Source of the DNA: a virus
IMG/VR virus record: IMGVR_UViG_3300044621_002232
Location: 1 to 29,961 of that record
Direction: 5' to 3' (one strand)
Length of the DNA stretch: 29,961 bases
A program made the position numbers and the translations under genes. The notes under the pieces are model-generated. The model was not told the origin of the DNA and did no database searches. It saw only the letters and a program-made list of their open reading frames with translations. Positions 4,597 to 29,288 of this stretch are shown piece by piece; positions within the stretch are counted from its first letter, which is position 1; each line of letters starts with the position of its first letter.

Positions 4597-4604
4597 TATT
4601 TAGC
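4597..4604 (-). promoter_or_regulatory. T4-like late promoter close to the 4589 ATG
   Basis: Reads GCTAAATA on the - strand, followed by CTGTGTC and the ATG. A start about six bases past the box would leave a 2-nt leader. It matches the CTAAATA variant also seen before phoH and the 12465 gene. Confidence 0.45.
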
Positions 4605-4672: not shown

Positions 4673-4680
4673 TATTTATG
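4673..4680 (-). promoter_or_regulatory. T4-like late promoter for the 4589-27 operon
   Basis: Reads CATAAATA on the - strand, about 80 nt ahead of the first gene of the leftward virion-type operon, in the divergent intergenic region. The transcript would start near 4667. Confidence 0.5.
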
Positions 4681-4779: not shown

Positions 4780-5535
4780 TTGAGTAGAAATCGAGCGCAG
4801 AAAGCACAAAAAAGAATGGCACAGGTACCGGTAGAAAACATCATTGCGTTTACGCAAACACCTAAGGCGGCTCAACGTCGCATAGACTTGGTCCCTCGAA
4901 CACGAAACCAAGAAGCACTGGTGTTGGCTCTACAAGATACTGCTGCTCACATTGTGGTCACAGTTGGTCCAGCAGGCACAGGTAAAACTTATCTGGCCAT
5001 GTTGGCAGCTATAAAATCTTTGAGACAAGGAGATTGCGAACGAATAGTACTGACTCGCCCAGCAGTGGGTGTAGAAGGCGAACAGCACGGTTTCTTGCCG
5101 GGCAATTTGATTGCCAAAATGGAACCATGGACTAGACCTTTGTTAGACGTCATGCGGGAATATTATCGCCCTCAAGACATTTTGGCCATGATAGAAGATC
5201 AGGTCATCGAAATAGCGCCCCTGGCCTACATGCGCGGTCGAACCTTTAAAAATTCATGGATTATTGCGGATGAAATGCAAAACGCTACACCAGCACAGGC
5301 CAAAATGCTCATGACTCGCATAGGGTCTAACAGTAGAATTGTGATCACAGGGGATGTGGAACAAGCTGACAGATTTAGCCGTGACAACGGCTTGTTGGAT
5401 CTGTGTCAGCGTCTTGAAACATCCTCGGTCCGAGGCATCACAGTTTGCCCCATGGAATTACGTGATGTCCAACGACATCCTATCATTGGATCAGTGATAA
5501 AACTTTACACAGATCAGGAGGTGATCAAGGCATAA
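4780..5535 (+). CDS. phoH: PhoH-like P-loop ATPase
   Basis: Protein of 251 residues with the PhoH ATPase core: Walker A GPAGTGKT at 63-70, a GFLPGN motif, and Walker B ending in ADEMQN, followed by the conserved ITGDVEQ stretch. PhoH proteins are predicted NTPases, possibly RNA helicase-related, and are very common in marine phages; their role in infection is not settled. The start is TTG at 4780, supported by AGGAG at 4769-4773; the next ATG (4816) has no such site. It is the only rightward gene in the window, and its 3' end overlaps the convergent HAD gene by 22 nt. Confidence 0.92.
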   Translation: MSRNRAQKAQKRMAQVPVENIIAFTQTPKAAQRRIDLVPRTRNQEALVLALQDTAAHIVVTVGPAGTGKTYLAMLAAIKSLRQGDCERIVLTRPAVGVEGEQHGFLPGNLIAKMEPWTRPLLDVMREYYRPQDILAMIEDQVIEIAPLAYMRGRTFKNSWIIADEMQNATPAQAKMLMTRIGSNSRIVITGDVEQADRFSRDNGLLDLCQRLETSSVRGITVCPMELRDVQRHPIIGSVIKLYTDQEVIKA

Positions 5536-6095: not shown

Positions 6096-6369
6096 CTTTT
6101 TTAACCTCAAAATCTACCGCATAACCGTTTTCAGCAAACAGTCTGTCCATGGTTGATTTGTAGTGTTGATAGTAATATTCAGCAATGCGGTTGAAGTCTC
6201 GTGGAACCTGTGTGCCATTGAGGCTGGCTTTGATCACTTCCAACTTCTTGAAATCCAAAATCACACTGCCAGTGGATATATCTCTGTTTTTGAGATTTTT
6301 GGCCACGGCCATGACTTCGTCAATTTGACCATTGGCTTTTTTGTAGTATGTTATAACAAGATATCTCAT
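6067..6369 (-). CDS. Small conserved protein following gp44
   Basis: Protein of 100 residues, starting in the stop of the clamp-loader gene (ATGA). It has a beta-rich N-terminus (MRYLVITYYKK) and a region DFKKLEVIKASLNGT, then YYYQHYKSTMDRLFAENGY. In T4 the position after gene 44 is held by gene 62, the small clamp-loader subunit, but this protein is much shorter and I see no likeness to gp62. The function is unknown; co-translation with gp44 suggests a replication-related job. Confidence 0.6.
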   Translation of the reverse strand: MRYLVITYYKKANGQIDEVMAVAKNLKNRDISTGSVILDFKKLEVIKASLNGTQVPRDFNRIAEYYYQHYKSTMDRLFAENGYAVDFEVKKDDTTKTNTD

Positions 6370-7289
6370 TGAATTTGACTGAGCTCAATCAGTGTAGCAC
6401 TTAAATTTATCTCCACATCTGCCACCGAAGCATGATTCACAATGCCATTGCGTATGATCACAATGGCTTGATCTTGCTGCTCAGCAGTGGATCCCCACAG
6501 TTCAAGATTGTCGTACATCCAGCGAAAGATGTCTTCGGCTTCTTCGGGCGTGGCACTTTGACACAGCAATGTACGAGCGCGACGTATTTCACCACGTTTG
6601 AAAAGATCCACACACTCCAGTCTCCAATCTCGCATGCTGCGGTCAGCATCGCCTGGCGCTGCCAGTCGGCCGCTTTGCGAATTCAGTTGTGTCATATTCA
6701 AACACTTGCGTAGATCAGGATAAGTGGCTTTGACATAGCTGTCCAGCACATCCAGATCAAACTCTACGCCTTCTGTGACCAGCACAGTGGCCACTCTGGC
6801 AGTGAACTCTGTGTGATCAGTTTTGGCAATGTGAAAACCTTGACAACGACTGTGTAAGGGCGGAATAATTTTGTGGGGATAGTTACAGGTCAACACAAAT
6901 CGCACTGTGCGTTCGTAGTCTTCCATGAGATTGCGCAGAGCTGGCTGAACTGATTCTTTGTTCATGTAGTCGGCTTCGTCAATCAGCACAATTTTAAAAT
7001 TGCCAAACGGCATGGTTTGACAGAATCCAATCAGTTTGTCAACCCACTCAATTTTGCGACCTTCTTTGGATCCGTTGACATACATCACATCATATTCGTC
7101 CACGCCCAACTGATGAATCAACAGTTTGGCCAGTGTGGTCTTGCCTGTGCCTGGTGCACCACTCAGCATCAAGTGCGGGATACTGCCGTCGCGAATCCAA
7201 GCCTCAACTTGTTCTCGCTGTGTTTGATCAACAAACACATAGTCTTCTACATTTTTTGGCCTAAATTTTTCTACCCAGAGTTCTTTCAT
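6366..7289 (-). CDS. 44: Sliding-clamp loader large subunit (T4 gp44-like AAA+ ATPase)
   Basis: Protein of 307 residues, close to T4 gp44 (319). It begins with WVEKFRPKNVEDYVF, the standard clamp-loader opening. Walker A is GAPGTGKT at 44-51, Walker B is VLIDEAD at 101-107, and the sensor/arginine-finger SRC motif lies at 147-149, preceded by TCNYPHKIIPPLH. It would load the phage sliding clamp at primer ends during DNA replication. No clamp (gp45) or gp62 gene is in the window. The gene overlaps the glycosyltransferase-like gene upstream by 29 nt. Confidence 0.93.
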   Translation of the reverse strand: MKELWVEKFRPKNVEDYVFVDQTQREQVEAWIRDGSIPHLMLSGAPGTGKTTLAKLLIHQLGVDEYDVMYVNGSKEGRKIEWVDKLIGFCQTMPFGNFKIVLIDEADYMNKESVQPALRNLMEDYERTVRFVLTCNYPHKIIPPLHSRCQGFHIAKTDHTEFTARVATVLVTEGVEFDLDVLDSYVKATYPDLRKCLNMTQLNSQSGRLAAPGDADRSMRDWRLECVDLFKRGEIRRARTLLCQSATPEEAEDIFRWMYDNLELWGSTAEQQDQAIVIIRNGIVNHASVADVEINLSATLIELSQIQ

Positions 7290-9412: not shown

Positions 9413-9796
9413 TCAGCGTCGGGATTCAACGTGAACAGCGTCACTCATGGTGTCATCCTGTGGCGCCTGATCAGTGACCAGGAGGATGTCTTTGGGATCA
9501 ATTTTGCGTATGGTTTTTGCGCCTGTTTCGTCTTCGACTTCTACTCCGCGTGTCCAACGCCCGTGAGCCACACAGATCCATTGTCCCACTGTGACATCAT
9601 GTTGCCGGGGCCCAACTGCGTACACCCTACCCCATCTGGGACGAATGCCTGTGCCTTTGCCGTTGTCGTTCAACAGTATGATACCAGAGCTGGTTATCCT
9701 TTGATCAAATACCATGTCGCTCACAATCACAGTGTCGTTCAATGGCTTGAATTTTTTGATAGAAATTTGATTGGGATCAAACGCTTTTTGAGTCAT
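9413..9796 (-). CDS. GroES-like co-chaperonin (T4 gp31 role)
   Basis: Protein of 127 residues. The stretch FKPLNDTVIVSDM followed by SSGIILLNDNGKG matches the GroES beta-strand and mobile loop, where the IILL tripeptide region would contact GroEL. GRVYAVGP and DVTVGQWICVAHG are the later conserved strands, and the end (KIDPKDILLVTD) is the closing strand. In T4, gp31 replaces host GroES so that the major capsid protein gp23 can fold; the same use is inferred here. The extra C-terminal tail after residue 110 is Asp/Gln-rich and probably disordered. The ATG overlaps the preceding stop (TAATG). Confidence 0.82.
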   Translation of the reverse strand: MTQKAFDPNQISIKKFKPLNDTVIVSDMVFDQRITSSGIILLNDNGKGTGIRPRWGRVYAVGPRQHDVTVGQWICVAHGRWTRGVEVEDETGAKTIRKIDPKDILLVTDQAPQDDTMSDAVHVESRR

Positions 9797-10178: not shown

Positions 10179-10186
10179 TATTTAAC
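10179..10186 (-). promoter_or_regulatory. Possible late promoter inside the replication operon
   Basis: Reads GTTAAATA on the - strand and overlaps the stop of the polymerase-fragment gene. The predicted start near 10173 leaves a 12-nt leader holding AGGAG. The second base differs from other boxes, so this is weaker. Confidence 0.35.
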
Positions 10187-10700
10187 GCAGAAATTCTGCT
10201 GGATCTAAATCATAGTACAAGCTGTCAATTCTATGAACTCCTAGTTTGTATAGAACATAACTGGCCACACTGGATCCGCGGCCCACTCCCCAAACTAGAT
10301 GATGCTCGGTCATGACGTCAACAAGATACTTGAGATAGCGCAACAGATTGAACAAGTTGCGTTCTTGATACATCAATAGTTCTTGGCCTACTCGCTGTAA
10401 TTCCTGATCAGACTCACACAGACTCAACGCATATTGAGCAATGTCCAAAGTCTGATATTGTTCTGGCATGAACCAAACTTGCTGATTTCTGTGATCAAAT
10501 TCTTCAGTGGTCATTTGATCAACCAGTTCGTTGTACCGCACAAAAGCTGGCACGTCTTCAAGTATTTGAGCCGCAGTTTCCAAATCAACTGAATCGTCTA
10601 CCAATGCTTGGCCAAACTGTCGAATCTCTTGCCCACGCATCACAGCATCGCAAAGATCACTTTCGTCCAGTATGATTTCTCCGTGTTTGTTAGTTTTCAT
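10182..10700 (-). CDS. Orphan fragment of bacterial DNA polymerase III alpha (DnaE-like)
   Basis: Protein of 172 residues. Residues 138-172 contain GVGRGSSVASYVLYKLG and IDSLYYDLDPAEFLR, matching the C-family polymerase palm stretch (GRGSxxxSxVxYxLGxxxxDPLxxxLxFERFL). The 30 residues before it (ERNLFNLLRYLKYLVD) fit the preceding DnaE helix. The protein stops just where DnaE would go on to its catalytic PDxDxD, so it lacks the active-site aspartates, and the PHP and finger domains are absent. It is intact as a gene, with normal overlaps on both sides, so it is probably a repurposed domain and not debris. Its role is unknown. Confidence 0.75.
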   Translation of the reverse strand: MKTNKHGEIILDESDLCDAVMRGQEIRQFGQALVDDSVDLETAAQILEDVPAFVRYNELVDQMTTEEFDHRNQQVWFMPEQYQTLDIAQYALSLCESDQELQRVGQELLMYQERNLFNLLRYLKYLVDVMTEHHLVWGVGRGSSVASYVLYKLGVHRIDSLYYDLDPAEFLR

Positions 10701-12519: not shown

Positions 12520-14061
12520 TTATGTTCTCAGTCCAGTTTTGTTAAATTCTATCGCGCCAGCACCATTGACTCCGCTAAAAGTGTTAAATGGCATGTATGC
12601 ATAACGATTTGGTCCGCCGTGTAAACTTTGAAAGTCAGCATAATTGGTAGTGGATACTGTGTCGTATAACACTCCCACTGTTGAGTCAGATATGATTTTC
12701 TGACGAATTTGAGCTGGTGTGGCCCTGGGGTAAACTTGTAGCAGTTGTGCCACAATGCCTGCTACATTGGGGCTAGCCATTGACGTGCCAGAGATACTGC
12801 CAATACGAAACAAAGAATTAAACGGGTAAACTGTAGATGCTCCAAATGCATTAGTGGTACTCATAGCACTTACTATTGCAGAGCCAGGGGCATAAACATC
12901 TACTCTGGGTCCACTGTCGCTAAAACCACTTTTGGTTTCTGGACCAATTTGGGTTGCGACACTACCAACACAGATCACTCCAGGCACTGCGGTTGGTGTG
13001 CAACCCTGCATGTAGTAAGTTTGAGAGCCATCTCTCAGAAACCAGTTGTTGTAGTCTGGTCCACCAAGTACATCAAGTGTTTGATAAAAATTGCCAGCTG
13101 ACCCAACCAAACAAACACCTTCTGCCAACAATTCGGCTACGTCAACATCTGTGCTTGCTACCCTAGTTCCAAAGACGCTGCCGGCCCCAATCATACCATA
13201 TTCGGGTCTTGAAGTATTGCCTGACCAAGACGTGCCTCGATAGTTTCCGCCATTGATAAATTGAAAGGTATTGATGTAGGCCCAACTCATATTGACCACG
13301 GTGGGTCGTTTGTATCCAGTGGCTGGATCTATGTTTTTGTAGCTATGCCATCCTTTGATACAGTCAAATGCATTTGTTACACTTAAACCCACAGTGGGAG
13401 ATCGAGCCAGACCGTTTACAGTCATCACATAGATGTCAGAATTTTTGGCTCTGCCATAAGTTTTGCCTGCAGCAATACCACAAACGTGTGTGCCGTGCCC
13501 GTCGTAGTCTGTGTAGAAAGTGGCAGGCATAGTACCTGGAATAAGTGAAGCAGCAAACCAGTCAATCTGTTTGACTCTGCTGATTCCTGCTGCGTTGGTA
13601 AATTCTGGGTGATCAACTTGACATCCAGAATCCTGTACAACAAAATCTACTCCAGTACCGTCTAGTGGATAGTTGTAGGTAAGATTGCCAGCGGAACTTG
13701 TAGTGTTGTTGGTGGTTGAATTTGTTCTAAAAAGACCCCAATTGATGGCTAGATTATTTGATGGATTGACACCCGAAATCTTATAGTACAGCCCGCTCTG
13801 TGCTGCTGTCAATATCATTTCTATGTCAGTGCGATGTTCTGGTGGTAATTCCACACAATACACTCTGGGATCTTTGCGTAAAGTTTCAGCTTCAGCATCA
13901 GTCAAATCATACCAACACTGACGCTGGCTAGTAGGACGCTCGTTGGCAATTTCAACACCGCGATAAGGAACGTAACCACTGCCCAGACCAACAGTTTCTA
14001 TTTCGTGCCAAAACGCATCGTAATCTACACCTGTGTTGAGAGCTACATTGTAAACAGTCAT
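12520..14061 (-). CDS. Subtilisin-family (S8) serine protease in the tail-fibre cluster
   Basis: Protein of 513 residues with a complete catalytic set: Asp144 ([14 protein letters not shown]), His189 ([14 protein letters not shown]), oxyanion Asn324 (VGSAGN) and Ser427 ([12 protein letters not shown]). There is no signal peptide, so it is not exported by Sec. Residues 1-90 (with [19 protein letters not shown]) look like the I9-type propeptide that guards subtilases. The ATG overlaps the stop of the collagen-like gene (ATGA), and tail-fibre-type genes lie on both sides. It is therefore likely packaged, to trim fibre proteins or to digest host surface proteins. The target is inference; the fold is secure. 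Confidence 0.92.
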
Positions 14062-15174: not shown

Positions 15175-15182
15175 TATTTATG
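15175..15182 (-). promoter_or_regulatory. T4-like late promoter ahead of the 15164 fibre gene
   Basis: Reads CATAAATA on the - strand and contains the TAA stop of the 906-residue protein. The predicted start near 15169 leaves a leader of about 5 nt and no Shine-Dalgarno site. Confidence 0.45.
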
Positions 15183-20541: not shown

Positions 20542-20862
20542 CTAAATTGCGAAACTGCTGCCGCACCCACAGGTGCTGGTTGCATTGGGATTGTTGATCA
20601 CAAAGCTGGATCCCATGATGTCGTCTTTGAAGTCTATTTCAGCGCCTTCAAGATACTGCATGCTCATGGCATCAACCAGTATTACAACAGAGTCTTCTGC
20701 GAACTCAAAATCGTCATCGTTTTTGATTTCGTCAAAGGTAAACCCGTAGCTGAATCCAGAGCAACCGCCGCCCTGTACAAATATGCGTAGTTTTAGATCA
20801 GGATTGCCTTCTTCGGCAATGAGCTCTTTGAGCTTGCTCACAGCATTGGTTTGAATGTTCAT
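20542..20862 (-). CDS. A-type Fe-S cluster carrier (IscA/ErpA/HesB family)
   Basis: Protein of 106 residues from the ATG at 20862, which overlaps the SOD stop (ATGA); an upstream ATG is less likely. The three cluster-binding cysteines are in family positions: Cys34 in [11 protein letters not shown] and Cys98/Cys100 in the C-terminal TCGCGSSF. These match C35, C99 and C101 of E. coli IscA almost exactly, and the length is that of the family. It should accept and deliver Fe-S clusters to apo-proteins. Its place behind SOD suggests support of Fe-S enzymes under oxidative stress in the infected cell, which is inference. Confidence 0.92.
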
Positions 20863-21401
20863 AAGCGTTCTGAACAAATGTCCCAGTTGATAATGCGCCA
20901 AATGTTGTCAAGATATTTTTCTTTTTCCCACTGATAGTCCGTGGCCCAAACATGCTCCCACCAGTCAATCAGCACACAGATATCTGTGCGTACAGCATGA
21001 TTTCTGATGGTTTTGATCTCTCCACTGGTACTCAAGTAAACCCATCCTGATCCCTGGATTTTCATTGCTGTTTCTTTCACAGCGTCTTGAAATGCTTCGT
21101 AGCTTTTGAATTTGCGTTCAATCAGTTCCAACACAGCACCCCGGGGGCGATTTGTGCCCTTGGGTGGTTGTAGTTGTGGGAAAAATTTGTTGTGTAAAAA
21201 GCTACCTGCACGATTGAAATCAGCATCACCTTCGCCAGCGTTGTAGCGTTTGGCGTAGCCTTTGGCTAGATGCTCGTAATGATAGTTGATACTGTCTGCA
21301 CTCAGCACAGGTGCCAACTCGTCAGTGGCATAGGGCAGAGGAGTGGTTTCTAGCTTGGCCGGTTTGGTTGATGCTTCTACAATGTTGATGTGATCTCGCA
21401 T
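20859..21401 (-). CDS. Fe/Mn superoxide dismutase
   Basis: Protein of 180 residues from the ATG at 21401. All four metal ligands fit the family: His41 ([11 protein letters not shown]), His70 (SFLHNKFF), Asp146 and His150 (IDWWEHVW). Tyr49 corresponds to active-site Tyr34, GSGWVYL is conserved, and the end INWDIC matches VNWxxV. The position of E. coli His30 appears to be Leu45 here. There is no signal peptide, so it acts in the host cytoplasm, converting superoxide to peroxide and oxygen. Metal choice cannot be read. A late box lies exactly 5 nt before the ATG, so this gene and the Fe-S carrier may have a late, leaderless transcript as well as the operon transcript. Confidence 0.92.
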
Positions 21402-21406
21402 GAAGA

Positions 21407-21414
21407 TATTTATT
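21407..21414 (-). promoter_or_regulatory. T4-like late promoter abutting the SOD ATG
   Basis: Reads AATAAATA on the - strand, then TCTTC, then ATG. With T4 spacing, the first transcribed base is the A of ATG. Confidence 0.6.
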
Positions 21415-22456
21415 GAAAATGCGAATACACACTGACTTGACTGGTCACAAAATCGCTGCTGGGTCGGTACAGACAAAAATCAAGATTGTTTCCTAGCAAA
21501 ACATTGTGTTTGAGATTCATCCACGGTGCAAAGTTAATCAAATCAAATTTGCGATTTTTAATAATCCACAGTGTATAGGTGCTGTCTGATTTGTCTTTGT
21601 GAAAATTATGATGATGTTTGACAGCAGTTTCCAAAATTCCTGGCCTAGATTCACACTGTTGAGCCAGCTCTTGTGTGTCTCCTGCTATTTCCCAACTCCA
21701 ATAGTCGCCAGTGTTGGCAATTTGCTCAGGCCAACTTGTGTAAATTTTCACACTGGGTTTGGGAAATTTTTTACGCCATTGAATAAAATCATCCATCAGC
21801 ATTTGCGCTTGTAATGGCTGTTCGTCGTGCCATGTTCCATTACTGACATAGTCTAGTCGCAAATAAGGCTGATTTTGACGATTCCAAATTTTAAAGTACA
21901 ATACTTTCTGTAATTGATTGATTGAAAGTTTGGCTGCTAAAACTTCGTGTAGTTTTTGGTCAGTATCAATCAACAATGGATTGTCCAACAAGCTCAAGGG
22001 GGTCGGTGTTCTTTCCAACATCAGCACAGGATATTGCTGTTCTGGATCGTGCGAAACAATTGATGTGGCAAATGCTCTACTCATACCAGTAGCTTGATCC
22101 AGCTGCCCATCACTGTCTCGAGATATCAACGCTGGATATTGCCATGATTCTGTTAGTGCTGTTCTACACATCATGAGATAAAAAGCCAATCTTTTTTTAA
22201 GATTGTAATCCAGCGAGTCTGCGTTGTAGAGATAGTCAAGATGACTGCGCCAATTGTGATTGTATGTATTGATAAAACTGGTGTAGGACATTTTGCCATA
22301 AAACAAAATTCCGCCCAGAGTTTTCAGCATAGTCACAATGCCCGTTTTGGCTCCTTCAATGCCAAATACAACCCTTAAAGCATTGGTTTGTATGCTCAAA
22401 CAATCGTCATGATTGATCAACCCAGCATTGATTTGAGTAGGTACAAAATCTGTCAT
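21410..22456 (-). CDS. Unidentified 348-residue phage protein
   Basis: Soluble protein with no membrane segment or known motif. It has an N-terminal part with a Leu/Tyr-rich helical region (YTSFINTYNHNWRSHLDYLY) and a middle stretch SWQYPALISRDSDGQ. The C-terminal part is Trp- and His-rich (VKHHHNFHKDKSD, LINFAPWMNLKHN). Its ATG overlaps the IF-1 stop (ATGA), and its last codons contain the late promoter of SOD. I do not recognise a family. Co-translation with IF-1 makes a link to gene expression possible, but nothing in the sequence shows it. Confidence 0.65.
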   Translation of the reverse strand: MTDFVPTQINAGLINHDDCLSIQTNALRVVFGIEGAKTGIVTMLKTLGGILFYGKMSYTSFINTYNHNWRSHLDYLYNADSLDYNLKKRLAFYLMMCRTALTESWQYPALISRDSDGQLDQATGMSRAFATSIVSHDPEQQYPVLMLERTPTPLSLLDNPLLIDTDQKLHEVLAAKLSINQLQKVLYFKIWNRQNQPYLRLDYVSNGTWHDEQPLQAQMLMDDFIQWRKKFPKPSVKIYTSWPEQIANTGDYWSWEIAGDTQELAQQCESRPGILETAVKHHHNFHKDKSDSTYTLWIIKNRKFDLINFAPWMNLKHNVLLGNNLDFCLYRPSSDFVTSQVSVYSHFQ

Positions 22457-22671
22457 CGTCTTCTCACAATGCGTCCGCGGGTCAAGTCGTAGGGACTAAA
22501 CTCAATCAGCACCCGATCGCCCAACAAAATTTTGATATCGTTTTTGCGCATGCGACCTGAAATGTAGCCTATCACTGGTGTGGTCAGATTGTCTATTGCG
22601 ATTCTAAACATGGTATTGGGCAGCACATCCACCACTTTGCCTTCCAGCTGAATTGTTTCTTCCTTGGCCAT
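22453..22671 (-). CDS. infA: Translation initiation factor IF-1
   Basis: Protein of 72 residues, exactly the family length. MAKEETIQLEGKVVDVLPNT, MFRI, ISGRMRKNDIKILLGDRV and SPYDLTRGRIVRRR match bacterial IF-1 over its whole OB-fold, including the basic residues that contact 16S rRNA in the A site. The one odd stretch is DNLTTPVIGY, where bacterial IF-1 has ENGHxxxAH. The gene is intact and coupled to its neighbours. In bacteria IF-1 blocks the A site during initiation and helps IF-2 and IF-3; it can also act as an RNA chaperone. A phage copy could bias host ribosomes; that is inference. The Shine-Dalgarno site is weak. Confidence 0.93.
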   Translation of the reverse strand: MAKEETIQLEGKVVDVLPNTMFRIAIDNLTTPVIGYISGRMRKNDIKILLGDRVLIEFSPYDLTRGRIVRRR

Positions 22672-22683
22672 TTCTACTAGTAA

Positions 22684-23097
22684 TTATGAAAAAGAGAGTT
22701 CAGCAGTGATTTTCTGTAGTCGTTCAAATCTAAAACTGCGCCATTCCATCAGTTCAAGATCAAACACACGCAGGCTATGCGGGTCGGGCTCTCGTCGAGA
22801 TTTTGATTCACGCACTATACCATCCACTGCTGTGCTATTGGTTGCTGCTTGGGGGTGTTTAGCTGCGGGAATAAAGTCCCAGTTTAGAGTACATTTCATG
22901 TGTCTCACAGTATTATCAGCCTTGACAAAAGTCACTGTGACAGGTTGTTTTTGTAGCAGACTGCGTACCCAATCGCGTATGATGGCTTTGTTGGCATCAT
23001 CAGCTTCTTGATACTGTGTACCCGGAGCACCTTTGAGCAGGCGCACCACTTCTTGCTGATCCCAGGCTTTAATTAGATTGACTAAATTGATTGACAT
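22684..23097 (-). CDS. SH3-like beta-barrel protein (WYL_2/DUF2693-like)
   Basis: Protein of 137 residues. The C-terminal half (VTVTFVKADNTVRHMKCTLN, then HSLRVFDLELMEWRSFRFER) matches the phage WYL_2/DUF2693 pattern, in which a strand pair is followed by a VxD...WRSFR motif. This is thought to be an Sm-like or SH3-like fold with nucleic-acid-binding potential. The N-terminal part is a helical region (VNLIKAWDQQEVVRLL). A role in regulating host or phage nucleic acid is inferred from the family only. Confidence 0.65.
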   Translation of the reverse strand: MSINLVNLIKAWDQQEVVRLLKGAPGTQYQEADDANKAIIRDWVRSLLQKQPVTVTFVKADNTVRHMKCTLNWDFIPAAKHPQAATNSTAVDGIVRESKSRREPDPHSLRVFDLELMEWRSFRFERLQKITAELSFS

Positions 23098-23103
23098 AAT
23101 AAA

Positions 23104-23499
23104 TTATCCACGACGCATGCGAGAAATATCTGCGGCTTCTTCTTGACTGAACACTGGCACAGCATTGCTCTTGTGGAGCGTGGCAATACCCATCACCTTG
23201 GTACCAGTGTACACTTTGGTCACAGGAGCAGTGACATGCGGACCACCGGTGTCTACACTGGGCAGTCGTGGCCCTGTGTCACGACCTGGGGGCGTGGTCA
23301 ATTTGTAAACAGTGTGAAGTGGTTCAAACATTCGACTCATTTTTTTCTTTGATTCAGGCACAGCCCATTTGGTTTTTAAATTTTGCCAGTCTGCTGCCAG
23401 TTCACGTGCTCGGCGAGCTTCTTCGGCATTGCGAAATTTATGACGACCTTTTTTCTTGCCCGTGAGAGTGAGAGCGGGTCCACAAAGATGCATGGTCAT
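23104..23499 (-). CDS. Conserved phage protein with basic N-terminus
   Basis: Protein of 131 residues. It opens MTMHLCGPALTLTGKKKGRH, then a basic helix (FRNAEEARRARELAADWQ), a Pro-rich middle and a C-terminus (KVMGIATLHKSNAVPVFSQE, then EAADISRMRR). This arrangement is one I recall from several cyanophages; no function is known. The ATG overlaps the previous stop (ATGA). Confidence 0.65.
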   Translation of the reverse strand: MTMHLCGPALTLTGKKKGRHKFRNAEEARRARELAADWQNLKTKWAVPESKKKMSRMFEPLHTVYKLTTPPGRDTGPRLPSVDTGGPHVTAPVTKVYTGTKVMGIATLHKSNAVPVFSQEEAADISRMRRG

Positions 23500-24906: not shown

Positions 24907-24935
24907 ATTATAACACAGATCCGGACATTTTACAA
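24907..24935 (-). promoter_or_regulatory. Sigma-70 type promoter for the hydrolase gene
   Basis: TATAAT (24907-24912) with TTGTAA (24930-24935) at 17 nt on the - strand. The -10 box overlaps the NadE stop codon. The start would be near 24900, giving a 75-nt leader. Confidence 0.4.
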
Positions 24936-25723
24936 ACTGGAATGGGCAACATCTTGTGAAGATTTCTAGATCGGATTTGTTGATATCGGCGCAGTTGTCT
25001 TTTTTCTGCGGCATTCAAACCTCGAAACTCTGCGTCATCGTGATCCAAGTTGTCCAAATACATGGCTCTTTCCAGCTCAGGATAGGTCATGCCCAGTTGC
25101 CCTTCATCGGTGCGACCATCGTCCCACAAACCGTCAGTGGGTTCGGCGTCAATGATTTCCTGTGGCAAACCCAGTTCACGACCCATGTCCCACACTTCGG
25201 TTTTGAGGCAGTCACCAATGGGGCTGATGTCTACTCCACCGTCACCGTACTTGGTAAAAAAGCCCACACCAAAGTCTTCCACCCGGTTGCCTGTGCCTAC
25301 CACAATGCCACCGTGGCTTTGAGCAATTTGATACAAGGTCATCATGCGCAATCTAGCACGGGAATTGGCACTGGCCAACTTGTAGGTATCGTAGGTGTCA
25401 TCCTCAATGTTGCAGAAAGCATCCACTTTCTTTTCAAACGCAGAGAACACCGAAGACAGGTCCATGCTCATGTGTGTTACATTGCTGGCATGCCGTTGCA
25501 GCAACCATGCGGCCTGCATCGAGCTGCGATTGTCTAGCTTCTTGTTTTGGCGGATGGGCATTTGAACCACAATGGTTCGCAGGCCTGTTCTAGCACACAA
25601 AGCACTCACAACCGACGAGTCAATGCCACCTGAAATTCCCACCACAAAAGTGTTGATTTTGGCACTGCGGGCATAGCTCCGGAGCCACCGCACAATGTGA
25701 CTGATGCGTTGCTGTGGTGTCAT
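24908..25723 (-). CDS. nadE: NAD+ synthetase, ammonia-dependent type
   Basis: Protein of 271 residues from the ATG at 25723 (ATGA overlap with the previous stop); a start at 25786 is less likely. The ATP-pyrophosphatase loop SGGIDSS is at 31-37; GTGNRVEDFGVGFFTKYGDG and DISPIGDCLKTEVWDMGREL are the deamido-NAD-binding and activation segments. Length is that of bacterial NadE (about 270), and no glutaminase domain is present. It should make NAD from deamido-NAD, ATP and ammonia. In phages it may rebuild NAD drained by infection or by host NAD-degrading defences; that use is inference. No other NAD salvage gene is in the window. Confidence 0.93.
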   Translation of the reverse strand: MTPQQRISHIVRWLRSYARSAKINTFVVGISGGIDSSVVSALCARTGLRTIVVQMPIRQNKKLDNRSSMQAAWLLQRHASNVTHMSMDLSSVFSAFEKKVDAFCNIEDDTYDTYKLASANSRARLRMMTLYQIAQSHGGIVVGTGNRVEDFGVGFFTKYGDGGVDISPIGDCLKTEVWDMGRELGLPQEIIDAEPTDGLWDDGRTDEGQLGMTYPELERAMYLDNLDHDDAEFRGLNAAEKRQLRRYQQIRSRNLHKMLPIPVCKMSGSVL

Positions 25724-26193
25724 TTTTGTGTTTTTATTGGAGGCATGCTCTTGAGCTTGTTCCACATTTCGGCTTTTTGTTGGCATTTCTTTTCCAGTTT
25801 GCGATAGCGTTCACCCAGTCGGCGCAGTTCATCCCACTCTTTTTCCAGTTCAGGATTGGGCACCAGCATGTTCAATCGCTGTTCGACCTGGGTCATCCAG
25901 TCTAGGAGACTGCGGTCACCTAGTTTGATGTCAGGATTTGGACCAGTGAGTCGGATCTGTCCAGCCTCTTCTGGTCTCACATTCCAGTTATAAGAGCCGC
26001 CAACAATACTGCCAACCCCTGTGGTATTTGTGGTATACACAATGCCCGTTGTACCATTGCTGCCAGCAATGGTTCCCATGGCACCGTTGCCGCCAAGGTT
26101 AATGGTGTTCCAATCCACACTGTAAGATGGGCTGGTCAAGTCAGGTACATCAACTGATACCGAATCGATATCAACTGTTGGTGTGTTAGACAT
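25720..26193 (-). CDS. Conserved phage protein with Asn/Gly-rich head and coiled-coil tail
   Basis: Protein of 157 residues. The first 75 residues are Gly/Asn/Thr-rich without motif. The rest has IRLTGPNPDIKLGDRSLLDW and a long helix (VPNPELEKEWDELRRLGERY, then RKLEKKCQQKAEMWNKL) likely to form a coiled coil. The same PNPELE...W pattern occurs in cyanophage proteins I recall. Neighbours are NadE and a basic Hc1-like protein. Function unknown. Confidence 0.65.
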   Translation of the reverse strand: MSNTPTVDIDSVSVDVPDLTSPSYSVDWNTINLGGNGAMGTIAGSNGTTGIVYTTNTTGVGSIVGGSYNWNVRPEEAGQIRLTGPNPDIKLGDRSLLDWMTQVEQRLNMLVPNPELEKEWDELRRLGERYRKLEKKCQQKAEMWNKLKSMPPIKTQK

Positions 26194-29280: not shown

Positions 29281-29288
29281 TATTTACC
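29281..29288 (-). promoter_or_regulatory. T4-like late promoter abutting the 29275 ATG
   Basis: Reads GGTAAATA on the - strand, then CTGTT, then ATG. T4 spacing puts +1 on the A of ATG. Confidence 0.6.

Follow-up and report, generated by a model that had tools for sequence, protein, structure and literature searches.

Why would a phage carry a translation initiation factor of its own? Core translation factors are seldom carried by phages, and in the literature that we found phage IF1 is listed but not studied. We addressed this question with an infA-like gene for translation initiation factor 1 (IF-1), which lies on the minus strand at 22453..22671 of the IMG/VR virus record IMGVR_UViG_3300044621_002232. 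The stretch analysed, positions 1 to 29,961 of that record, is referred to here as the window (29,961 nucleotides, nt). An earlier note on this DNA had described a phage IF-1 in an operon with superoxide dismutase (SOD) and an A-type Fe-S carrier, and had proposed that the factor might shift the choice of ribosomes toward or away from leaderless messages. Judged from its sequence, the gene appears to be the phage lineage's own and to encode a bona fide IF-1, which is predicted to bind the 30S subunit.

The window encodes a full-length IF-1

The gene starts with ATG, ends with TGA and encodes 72 amino acids (aa) on the minus strand; the same frame on the plus strand is interrupted by a stop. 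The protein matched the Pfam family PF01176 (eIF-1a) with 72.5 bits against a cut-off of 30.2 (E 2.3e-20), and the alignment of residues 7-71 to profile positions 1-64 of 64 covered the whole model. A search of PDB chains returned 12 distinct sequences at E <=0.001, every one named initiation factor 1 (best E 2.7e-21). The AlphaFold2 model (pLDDT 90.1, pTM 0.73) predicted an OB fold of five strands with a helix at 39-43 between beta3 and beta4, and its best structural match was E. coli IF1 on the 30S subunit (9fco_I, TM 0.92, 54% identity). The Pfam, PDB and fold matches thus confirm that this is a full-length 72-residue IF-1, as had been claimed. The PHROGs match, phrog_30201, is labelled 'unknown function'. 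This was the only IF-1 match in the 29,961-base record, which is probably a fragment because relatives run to 350 kb.

The ATG of IF-1 lies 12 nt behind the stop codon of the upstream gene, which encodes a WYL_2-domain protein, and is not preceded by a Shine-Dalgarno-like sequence. At the other end the IF-1 stop overlaps the ATG of the next gene (ATGA), which encodes a 348-aa protein. With such a short gap and no Shine-Dalgarno-like sequence, the window IF-1 probably depends on reinitiation by ribosomes that have finished the upstream WYL_2 gene, and has no leaderless message of its own. The gap and the stop/start overlap make translational coupling likely. Among 76 IF-1 genes (75 relative loci and the window) a Shine-Dalgarno-like sequence was seen at 19.

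IF-1 is a retained gene of the phage lineage

A scan of viral contigs gave 257 pattern-matched stretches, 245 of which encode a relative of IF-1. The earlier statement that initiation factors are rare in phage genomes was therefore too strong, and IF1 in huge phages had already been published (PMC7162821). The best 80 stretches were kept, from 90% identity down. Synteny was counted in 75 of these (L002-L076), without the window; start codons and the ratio of nonsynonymous to synonymous substitution (dN/dS) were counted in the same 75 loci plus the window. We found SOD in 72 of the 75 loci, in every case downstream and on the same strand (72/72), with a distance of at most 300 nt in 52. The WYL_2 gene was found in 48 of the 75 and was upstream on the same strand in all 48, at most 60 nt away in 40, while IscA, the Fe-S carrier, was found in 66. 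The neighbours named by the earlier note are thus borne out, also by their Pfam matches (PF02777 for SOD, PF01521 for the carrier). The operon is borne out only in part, since SOD has a promoter-like element of its own (66 of 73 loci) and in the window the 348-aa gene lies between IF-1 and SOD.

Retention was measured with the clamp loader as an independent marker, in the 48 of 80 clamp-loader loci that came from longer records. IF-1 was present in 31 of these 48 relatives, always on the strand of the clamp loader and 8-50 kb upstream of it. When at least 30 kb of upstream sequence was available, 26 of 29 relatives carried the gene. Among the 17 relatives without IF-1, 14 had less than 30 kb of upstream sequence, which left three absences that look real. 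We also looked at 27 big relatives that were chosen for carrying IF-1. All 27 records had one IF-1 each and none had a detectable IF3, although these records may be fragments. The ribosomal protein bS21 was found in 13 of the 27, and in 15 of 40 clamp-loader relatives.

A quick tree of 203 sequences set 91 lineage IF-1s, together with one long-branched huge-phage sequence, apart from 96 bacterial ones (support 90). In a careful tree of 122 representatives the lineage, with 42 representatives, formed one group (99/87, and 100% of 200 bootstrap trees). The bacterial sequences were the best 80 of the genome-scan matches listed plus 30 loci drawn from a set of 120 genomes, all from the phylum to which a betaproteobacterial genome belongs; 117 of the 120 had IF-1 matches, the best at 60%. 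The earlier note had named such a comparison with bacterial IF-1 as a check, and had weighed a chance transfer that would place the protein inside a bacterial clade with no retention in relatives. We found instead that the lineage falls outside the sampled bacterial clades (a sampling not aimed at Bacteroidota or Cyanobacteria) as a group of its own and that the gene is retained in 26 of 29 relatives. The neighbours of the group were single Chloroflexota and Spirochaetota sequences with weak support, so the tree does not name a donor.

A recent transfer from a host was rejected by the trees and by identity, since the best bacterial IF-1 among the matches listed was 62% identical, compared with 90% in viral contigs. 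Bacterial contamination of the window record was rejected by the synteny found in many records. Some records of the phage collection did look bacterial. The IF-1 record L261 ('Acinetobacter phage MD-2021a') has annotated chromosomal genes, and the IF-1 of L266 (Staphylococcus phage SA 1306 Kay) groups with Bacillota; both were set aside, as were L267 and L346. The doubtful L266, L267 and L346 were in the quick tree and were left out of the careful tree, from which L263 and L265 were also left out.

A second type of viral IF-1 consisted of 7 bacterial-looking sequences, which fell among Pseudomonadota in both trees; in the careful tree a Lak phage sequence on a long branch lay inside it. In 3 of the 7 records (L268, L269 and L270) this second type occupies the same slot, with phrog_27048 upstream and SOD and/or IscA downstream. 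No SOD or IscA match was found within the 3-kb pieces of L271, L274 and L276. Either some phages have had their IF-1 replaced in place, as this suggests, or the two types split early and the short alignment hides it. The presence of the second type in the same slot also suggests that an IF-1 is apparently favoured there.

Most 30S contact positions are kept and the interface carries derived residues

We took nine 30S-contact positions, in E. coli/C. difficile numbering, from PMC10913371 and PMC4611024 and compared the 91 lineage sequences with the 96 bacterial IF-1s. Seven of the nine positions (39, 41, 46, 60, 64, 66 and 70) were identical or showed a K/R exchange in 91/91 lineage sequences. 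Y60, R66 and R70 were each present in 91/91, R41 in 90/91 (with one K), and positions 39, 46 and 64 were R or K in all 91. The gene was also under strong constraint. With dN/dS restricted to pairs with a synonymous difference (pS) of 0.15-0.6, the median for IF-1 was 0.071 (252 pairs, range 0 to 0.434). This was the lowest of five genes, the medians of the neighbours being 0.081 for SOD, 0.124 for phrog_27048, 0.162 for IscA and 0.212 for WYL_2.

Other positions set the lineage apart from bacterial IF1. Residue 69 was Arg in 89 of the 91 lineage sequences and aromatic in 93 of the 96 bacterial ones; in C. difficile IF1 it is W and belongs to the set of residues that 30S perturbs (PMC10913371). 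The final Lys/Arg, present in 89/96 bacteria, was absent from 91/91 lineage sequences, whose C-terminus is shorter. The beta3-beta4 loop had 7 residues in 80/91 lineage sequences and 6 in 95/96 bacterial ones, and residue 57 was Phe in 84/91. Net charge was +4 for the window IF-1, with a lineage mean of 2.8 and a bacterial mean of 2.5.

A probable role in initiation at the 30S A site

Since most IF1 contacts are kept and the constraint is strong, the phage protein most likely does what IF1 does. We think it rather probable that it is a genuine IF1, which adds to host IF1 or takes its place at the 30S A site and keeps initiation going for phage messages in general. During infection the phage IF-1 would bind the A site (530 loop, h44 and S12) as host IF1 does, and would work alongside host IF2 and IF3 to speed correct initiation. 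Whether added to host IF1 or displacing it, the factor could allow efficient initiation of both leadered and leaderless phage messages at a time of high demand. A higher affinity or a changed rate of exchange may come from the altered beta3-beta4 loop and from Arg 69, which adjoins the C-terminal arginine that matters for function. Possible reasons for a phage to bring its own IF-1 would be a larger supply of the factor in infection, a better competitor by way of the altered tail, or a fit to altered ribosomes. With regard to the last of these, some relatives also bring bS21.

Several observations weigh against this role. Every host cell ought to contain an IF1 already, which leaves the need of the phage for its own copy unexplained. 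The two remaining contact positions are not kept: His35 was present in 18/91 lineage sequences compared with 82/96 bacteria, and position 42 was variable (Q 36, K 26, T 25, M 4; n=91). The residue comparison was with the 96 sampled bacterial IF-1s, not with the IF-1 of the host. The tree rests on 72 columns, partial bacterial sampling and a midpoint root only. Finally, three relatives (G058, G060 and G061), with clamp loaders of 61-63%, lack IF-1 where it is expected. None was found when their 20-kb pieces were searched with all the phage IF-1s collected, although the records may be incomplete. G060 and G061 are probably one phage, because their match statistics are identical, which makes about two independent IF-1-negative lineages. 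G061 preserves the order phrog_27048, WYL_2, SOD, IscA, and other genes fill the place of IF-1. These three relatives argue that IF-1 is dispensable in some backgrounds. In G061 the gap between WYL_2 and SOD (L390, 8930-9870) holds other genes, one of them with a leaderless-type start.

Leaderless-type late promoters do not track IF-1

The earlier note proposed that the phage IF-1 might bias ribosomes for or against leaderless messages; taken further, the idea would be that the factor is kept for its effect on the leaderless late messages of the phage. The premise that the phage uses leaderless messages is supported by the sequence, in that T4-like late-promoter motifs are placed 4-6 nt before ATG in the lineage. 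The motif TAAATA has 11 copies on the coding (minus) strand of the window and one on the other strand; the full TATAAATA, the T4-type late promoter element, has none. Four TAAATA sites lie 5-7 nt ahead of an ATG (29281-29286, 21407-21412, 4597-4602 and 1420-1425) and one, at 15180, lies 10 nt ahead. Five more are 17-26 nt ahead of a start, and a Shine-Dalgarno-like sequence accompanies four of the five; the site at 4678 has no nearby start. The site at 21407..21412 on the minus strand is T4-late-promoter-like and stands 5 nt ahead of the SOD start codon, a leaderless type of arrangement. SOD itself, an iron/manganese enzyme (20859..21401, minus; PF02777, 71.9 bits), was taken to start natively with MRDHIN at 21401, on the basis of conservation and this promoter-like element.

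In the IF-1-centred loci the spacing between motif and start had a peak at 5 nt (57, where permuted hexamers gave 9 on average) and a second peak at 19 nt (38 versus 6). After deduplication a Shine-Dalgarno-like sequence accompanied 24 of the 30 sites with a spacer of 19 and 3 of the 35 with a spacer of 5; SOD starts made up 21 of the latter 35. TAAATA was found 4-7 nt ahead of the start in 66/73 loci for SOD, 3/76 for IF-1, 1/67 for IscA and 0/47 for WYL_2. By the geometry of T4 late promoters, transcripts from the closely spaced sites would begin at or beside the AUG. The placement of the motif at SOD and elsewhere suggests that the lineage as a whole makes leaderless late messages. Such messages are already known from phages in general, since PMC5312081 states in passing that phage transcripts are often leaderless.

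Because the IF-1-centred loci leaned on SOD, the co-occurrence of IF-1 with such sites was examined in spread-out 20-kb pieces, with sites counted at 4-6 nt and the expectation taken from permuted hexamers. Eight IF-1-carrying records, of which G045 and G050 have the second IF-1 type, contained 73 sites in 800 kb where 9.5 were expected. The three relatives without detected IF-1 contained 28 sites in 360 kb, with 4.5 expected, or 19 in 240 kb when G061 was removed as a double. The outgroup phages T4, Paride, Phosso and Atu_ph07 together had 3 sites in 199 kb, with 3.2 expected. T4, Paride and Atu_ph07 had one site each in 49-50 kb; these three are absent from the 35 phage records that gave an IF-1 match. 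Phosso, which does have an IF-1, had 0 sites in 50 kb (0.3 expected), a result of low power with only 16 motif copies. The leaderless-type promoters thus do not track the presence of IF-1. Their density inside the lineage is similar with and without it, and they look like a lineage trait regardless of IF-1.

This result weakens a role of IF-1 on leaderless messages, with the limits that it depends on about two independent IF-1-negative lineages and that their records may be incomplete. According to a review (PMC9031893), leaderless translation in vitro is stimulated by IF1 and by IF2, and higher levels of IF3 inhibit it; this makes the direction of an IF-1 effect plausible. In addition, the leaderless-type placement is real in the lineage, as the 73 sites and the SOD starts attest, and in two loci, L024 and L038, a leaderless-type start belongs to IF-1 itself. 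However, such a start was seen at only 3 of 76 IF-1 genes, and the second set of promoter-like sites, at spacer 19, is leadered. We therefore regard a specific effect on leaderless messages as unlikely. A broader version would have a T4-like lineage with a leaderless late programme, its promoters about 5 nt before the AUG and conserved at SOD, tuned by a modified, arginine-rich-tailed IF-1 that outcompetes host IF1; IF-1-negative relatives would use another factor. We hold this to be unlikely as well, to a slightly greater degree.

Other roles for the phage IF-1

Bacterial IF1 has RNA chaperone and transcription antiterminator activity. The phage protein might likewise work chiefly away from the ribosome, with its OB fold serving an RNA chaperone or a transcription antiterminator. 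A review on RNA chaperones (PMC3017892) reportedly mentions IF1. Its positive net charge (+4 in the window) would suit such a role, as would the adjoining WYL_2 protein, a predicted Sm-like barrel. However, an off-ribosome role would not obviously need the seven of nine ribosome contacts, which are kept in at least 90 of the 91 sequences with K/R exchange counted as kept, and we find this role improbable.

We attach an equally small probability to a part in counter-defence or takeover, in which the phage factor would occupy the A site more tightly than host IF1 and so shield it from defences that act there, or slow host initiation. The derived 30S-facing tail, with Arg 69 in 89/91, and the altered loop, of 7 residues in 80/91, would be in line with tighter occupancy, but the same changes also fit drift or adaptation to the host ribosome. 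Moreover, net charge is near that of bacterial IF1, and no defence link was seen, none having been searched for.

The idea that IF-1 came from a host by chance and is carried along passively is largely refuted and hardly to be credited, since the gene is retained, is syntenic with SOD in 72/72 loci where SOD was found, forms its own tree group and is strongly constrained, even if stray copies do exist in phage-collection records that are bacterial DNA by annotation.

Relation to known initiation factors

Compared with bacterial IF1 (InfA; E. coli and T. thermophilus on 30S), the window protein has the same length, the same OB fold and most of the A-site contacts, with 54% identity to E. coli. 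The lineage differs in Arg 69, in mostly F57, in the absent final Lys/Arg and the mostly one residue longer loop, and in a mostly replaced His35 and a variable position 42. Phage-encoded IF1 in huge phages is already known: Al-Shayeb et al. 2020 (PMC7162821) list IF1 and IF3 among genes implicated in intercepting or redirecting host translation. As far as the available text goes, that is a survey listing, whereas here one T4-like lineage was followed, in which the gene is syntenic, constrained and in its own group, with no IF3 in the 27 big relatives. In what is available of a preprint, a 'translation initiation factor 1A' is given among the conserved genes of Jug phages, a huge-phage clade (PMC12363816); it is likened to the window IF-1 by name alone, not by sequence. 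Phage bS21 (PMC9723584) is likewise a phage spare part for the 30S subunit, but a different protein, and the main text of that paper, in the part available, does not mention IF-1.

Two cultured phages have related proteins. The IF-1 of Sinorhizobium phage Phosso (PV764938) is 58% identical to the window protein, and Phosso shares the block of PhoH, clamp loader and GroES; no SOD or IscA match was found in the 50 kb examined. Bacteroides phage DAC16 (L265, locus 627-932) encodes an IF-1-like protein of 41% identity with an N-terminal extension, annotated 'hypothetical'.

In the literature searched, which left preprints and subscription papers largely outside, no functional study of a phage IF-1 turned up, nor any account of T4-like phages whose late promoters are leaderless. 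Within these searches four things seem to be new: IF-1 has a near-constant place in this T4-like lineage, it forms a group of its own with derived residues at the interface, it has apparently been replaced within its slot in some phages, and the lineage has late promoters of a leaderless type. The lineage IF-1 is thus a near-constant, constrained gene with specific derived residues at the ribosome interface. Phage control of initiation becomes testable with it, as it is one small protein with a known binding site and a relative in the cultured phage Phosso, and the conserved leaderless-type late promoters provide natural test messages.

Gene neighbourhood of the window

Nearly all likely genes of the window are on the minus strand. 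The order begins with NAD synthase (24908..25786, minus; PF02540, 171.8 bits), followed by a cell-wall hydrolase and small genes. Next come the phrog_27048 protein, a conserved upstream gene of unknown function by its PHROGs match (23104..23499, minus), and, directly upstream of IF-1, the WYL_2-domain protein, a predicted Sm-like barrel (22684..23097, minus; PF10902, 43.8 bits). Between IF-1 and SOD is the open reading frame of the 348-aa protein (21410..22456, minus), which had no Pfam or PHROG match and only one relative among the matches listed, in L076 (25%). Beyond SOD the order continues with the A-type Fe-S carrier (IscA/HesB-like, 106 aa; 20542..20862, minus; PF01521, 65.5 bits; phrog_17776), genes with collagen-like repeats and a subtilase, and a GroES / gp31-like co-chaperonin (9413..9796, minus; phrog_931 and phrog_3188; PF00166, 23.3 bits with a cut-off of 21.1). 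It ends with the clamp loader ATPase that served as lineage marker (6366..7289, minus; phrog_168, 251.5 bits) and a PhoH-like ATPase that is divergent from the other genes (4780..5535, plus; PF02562, 226.5 bits).

The PhoH, clamp loader and GroES block recurs in the cultured jumbo phages Paride, Phosso and Atu_ph07. Among cultured phages the closest clamp loader, at 51%, belongs to PA5oct-like Pseudomonas phages, and the 35 phage records that gave an IF-1 match include none of these. A short protein at 10182-10700 of the window matches part of a DNA polymerase III alpha NTPase domain, and has matches close to the clamp loader of Paride, Phosso and Atu_ph07. At 12520-14061 a subtilase-family protease adjoins the proteins with collagen-like repeats. 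Finally, a GIY-YIG/NUMOD3 homing endonuclease-like gene at 773-1414 has a leaderless-type promoter motif of its own.
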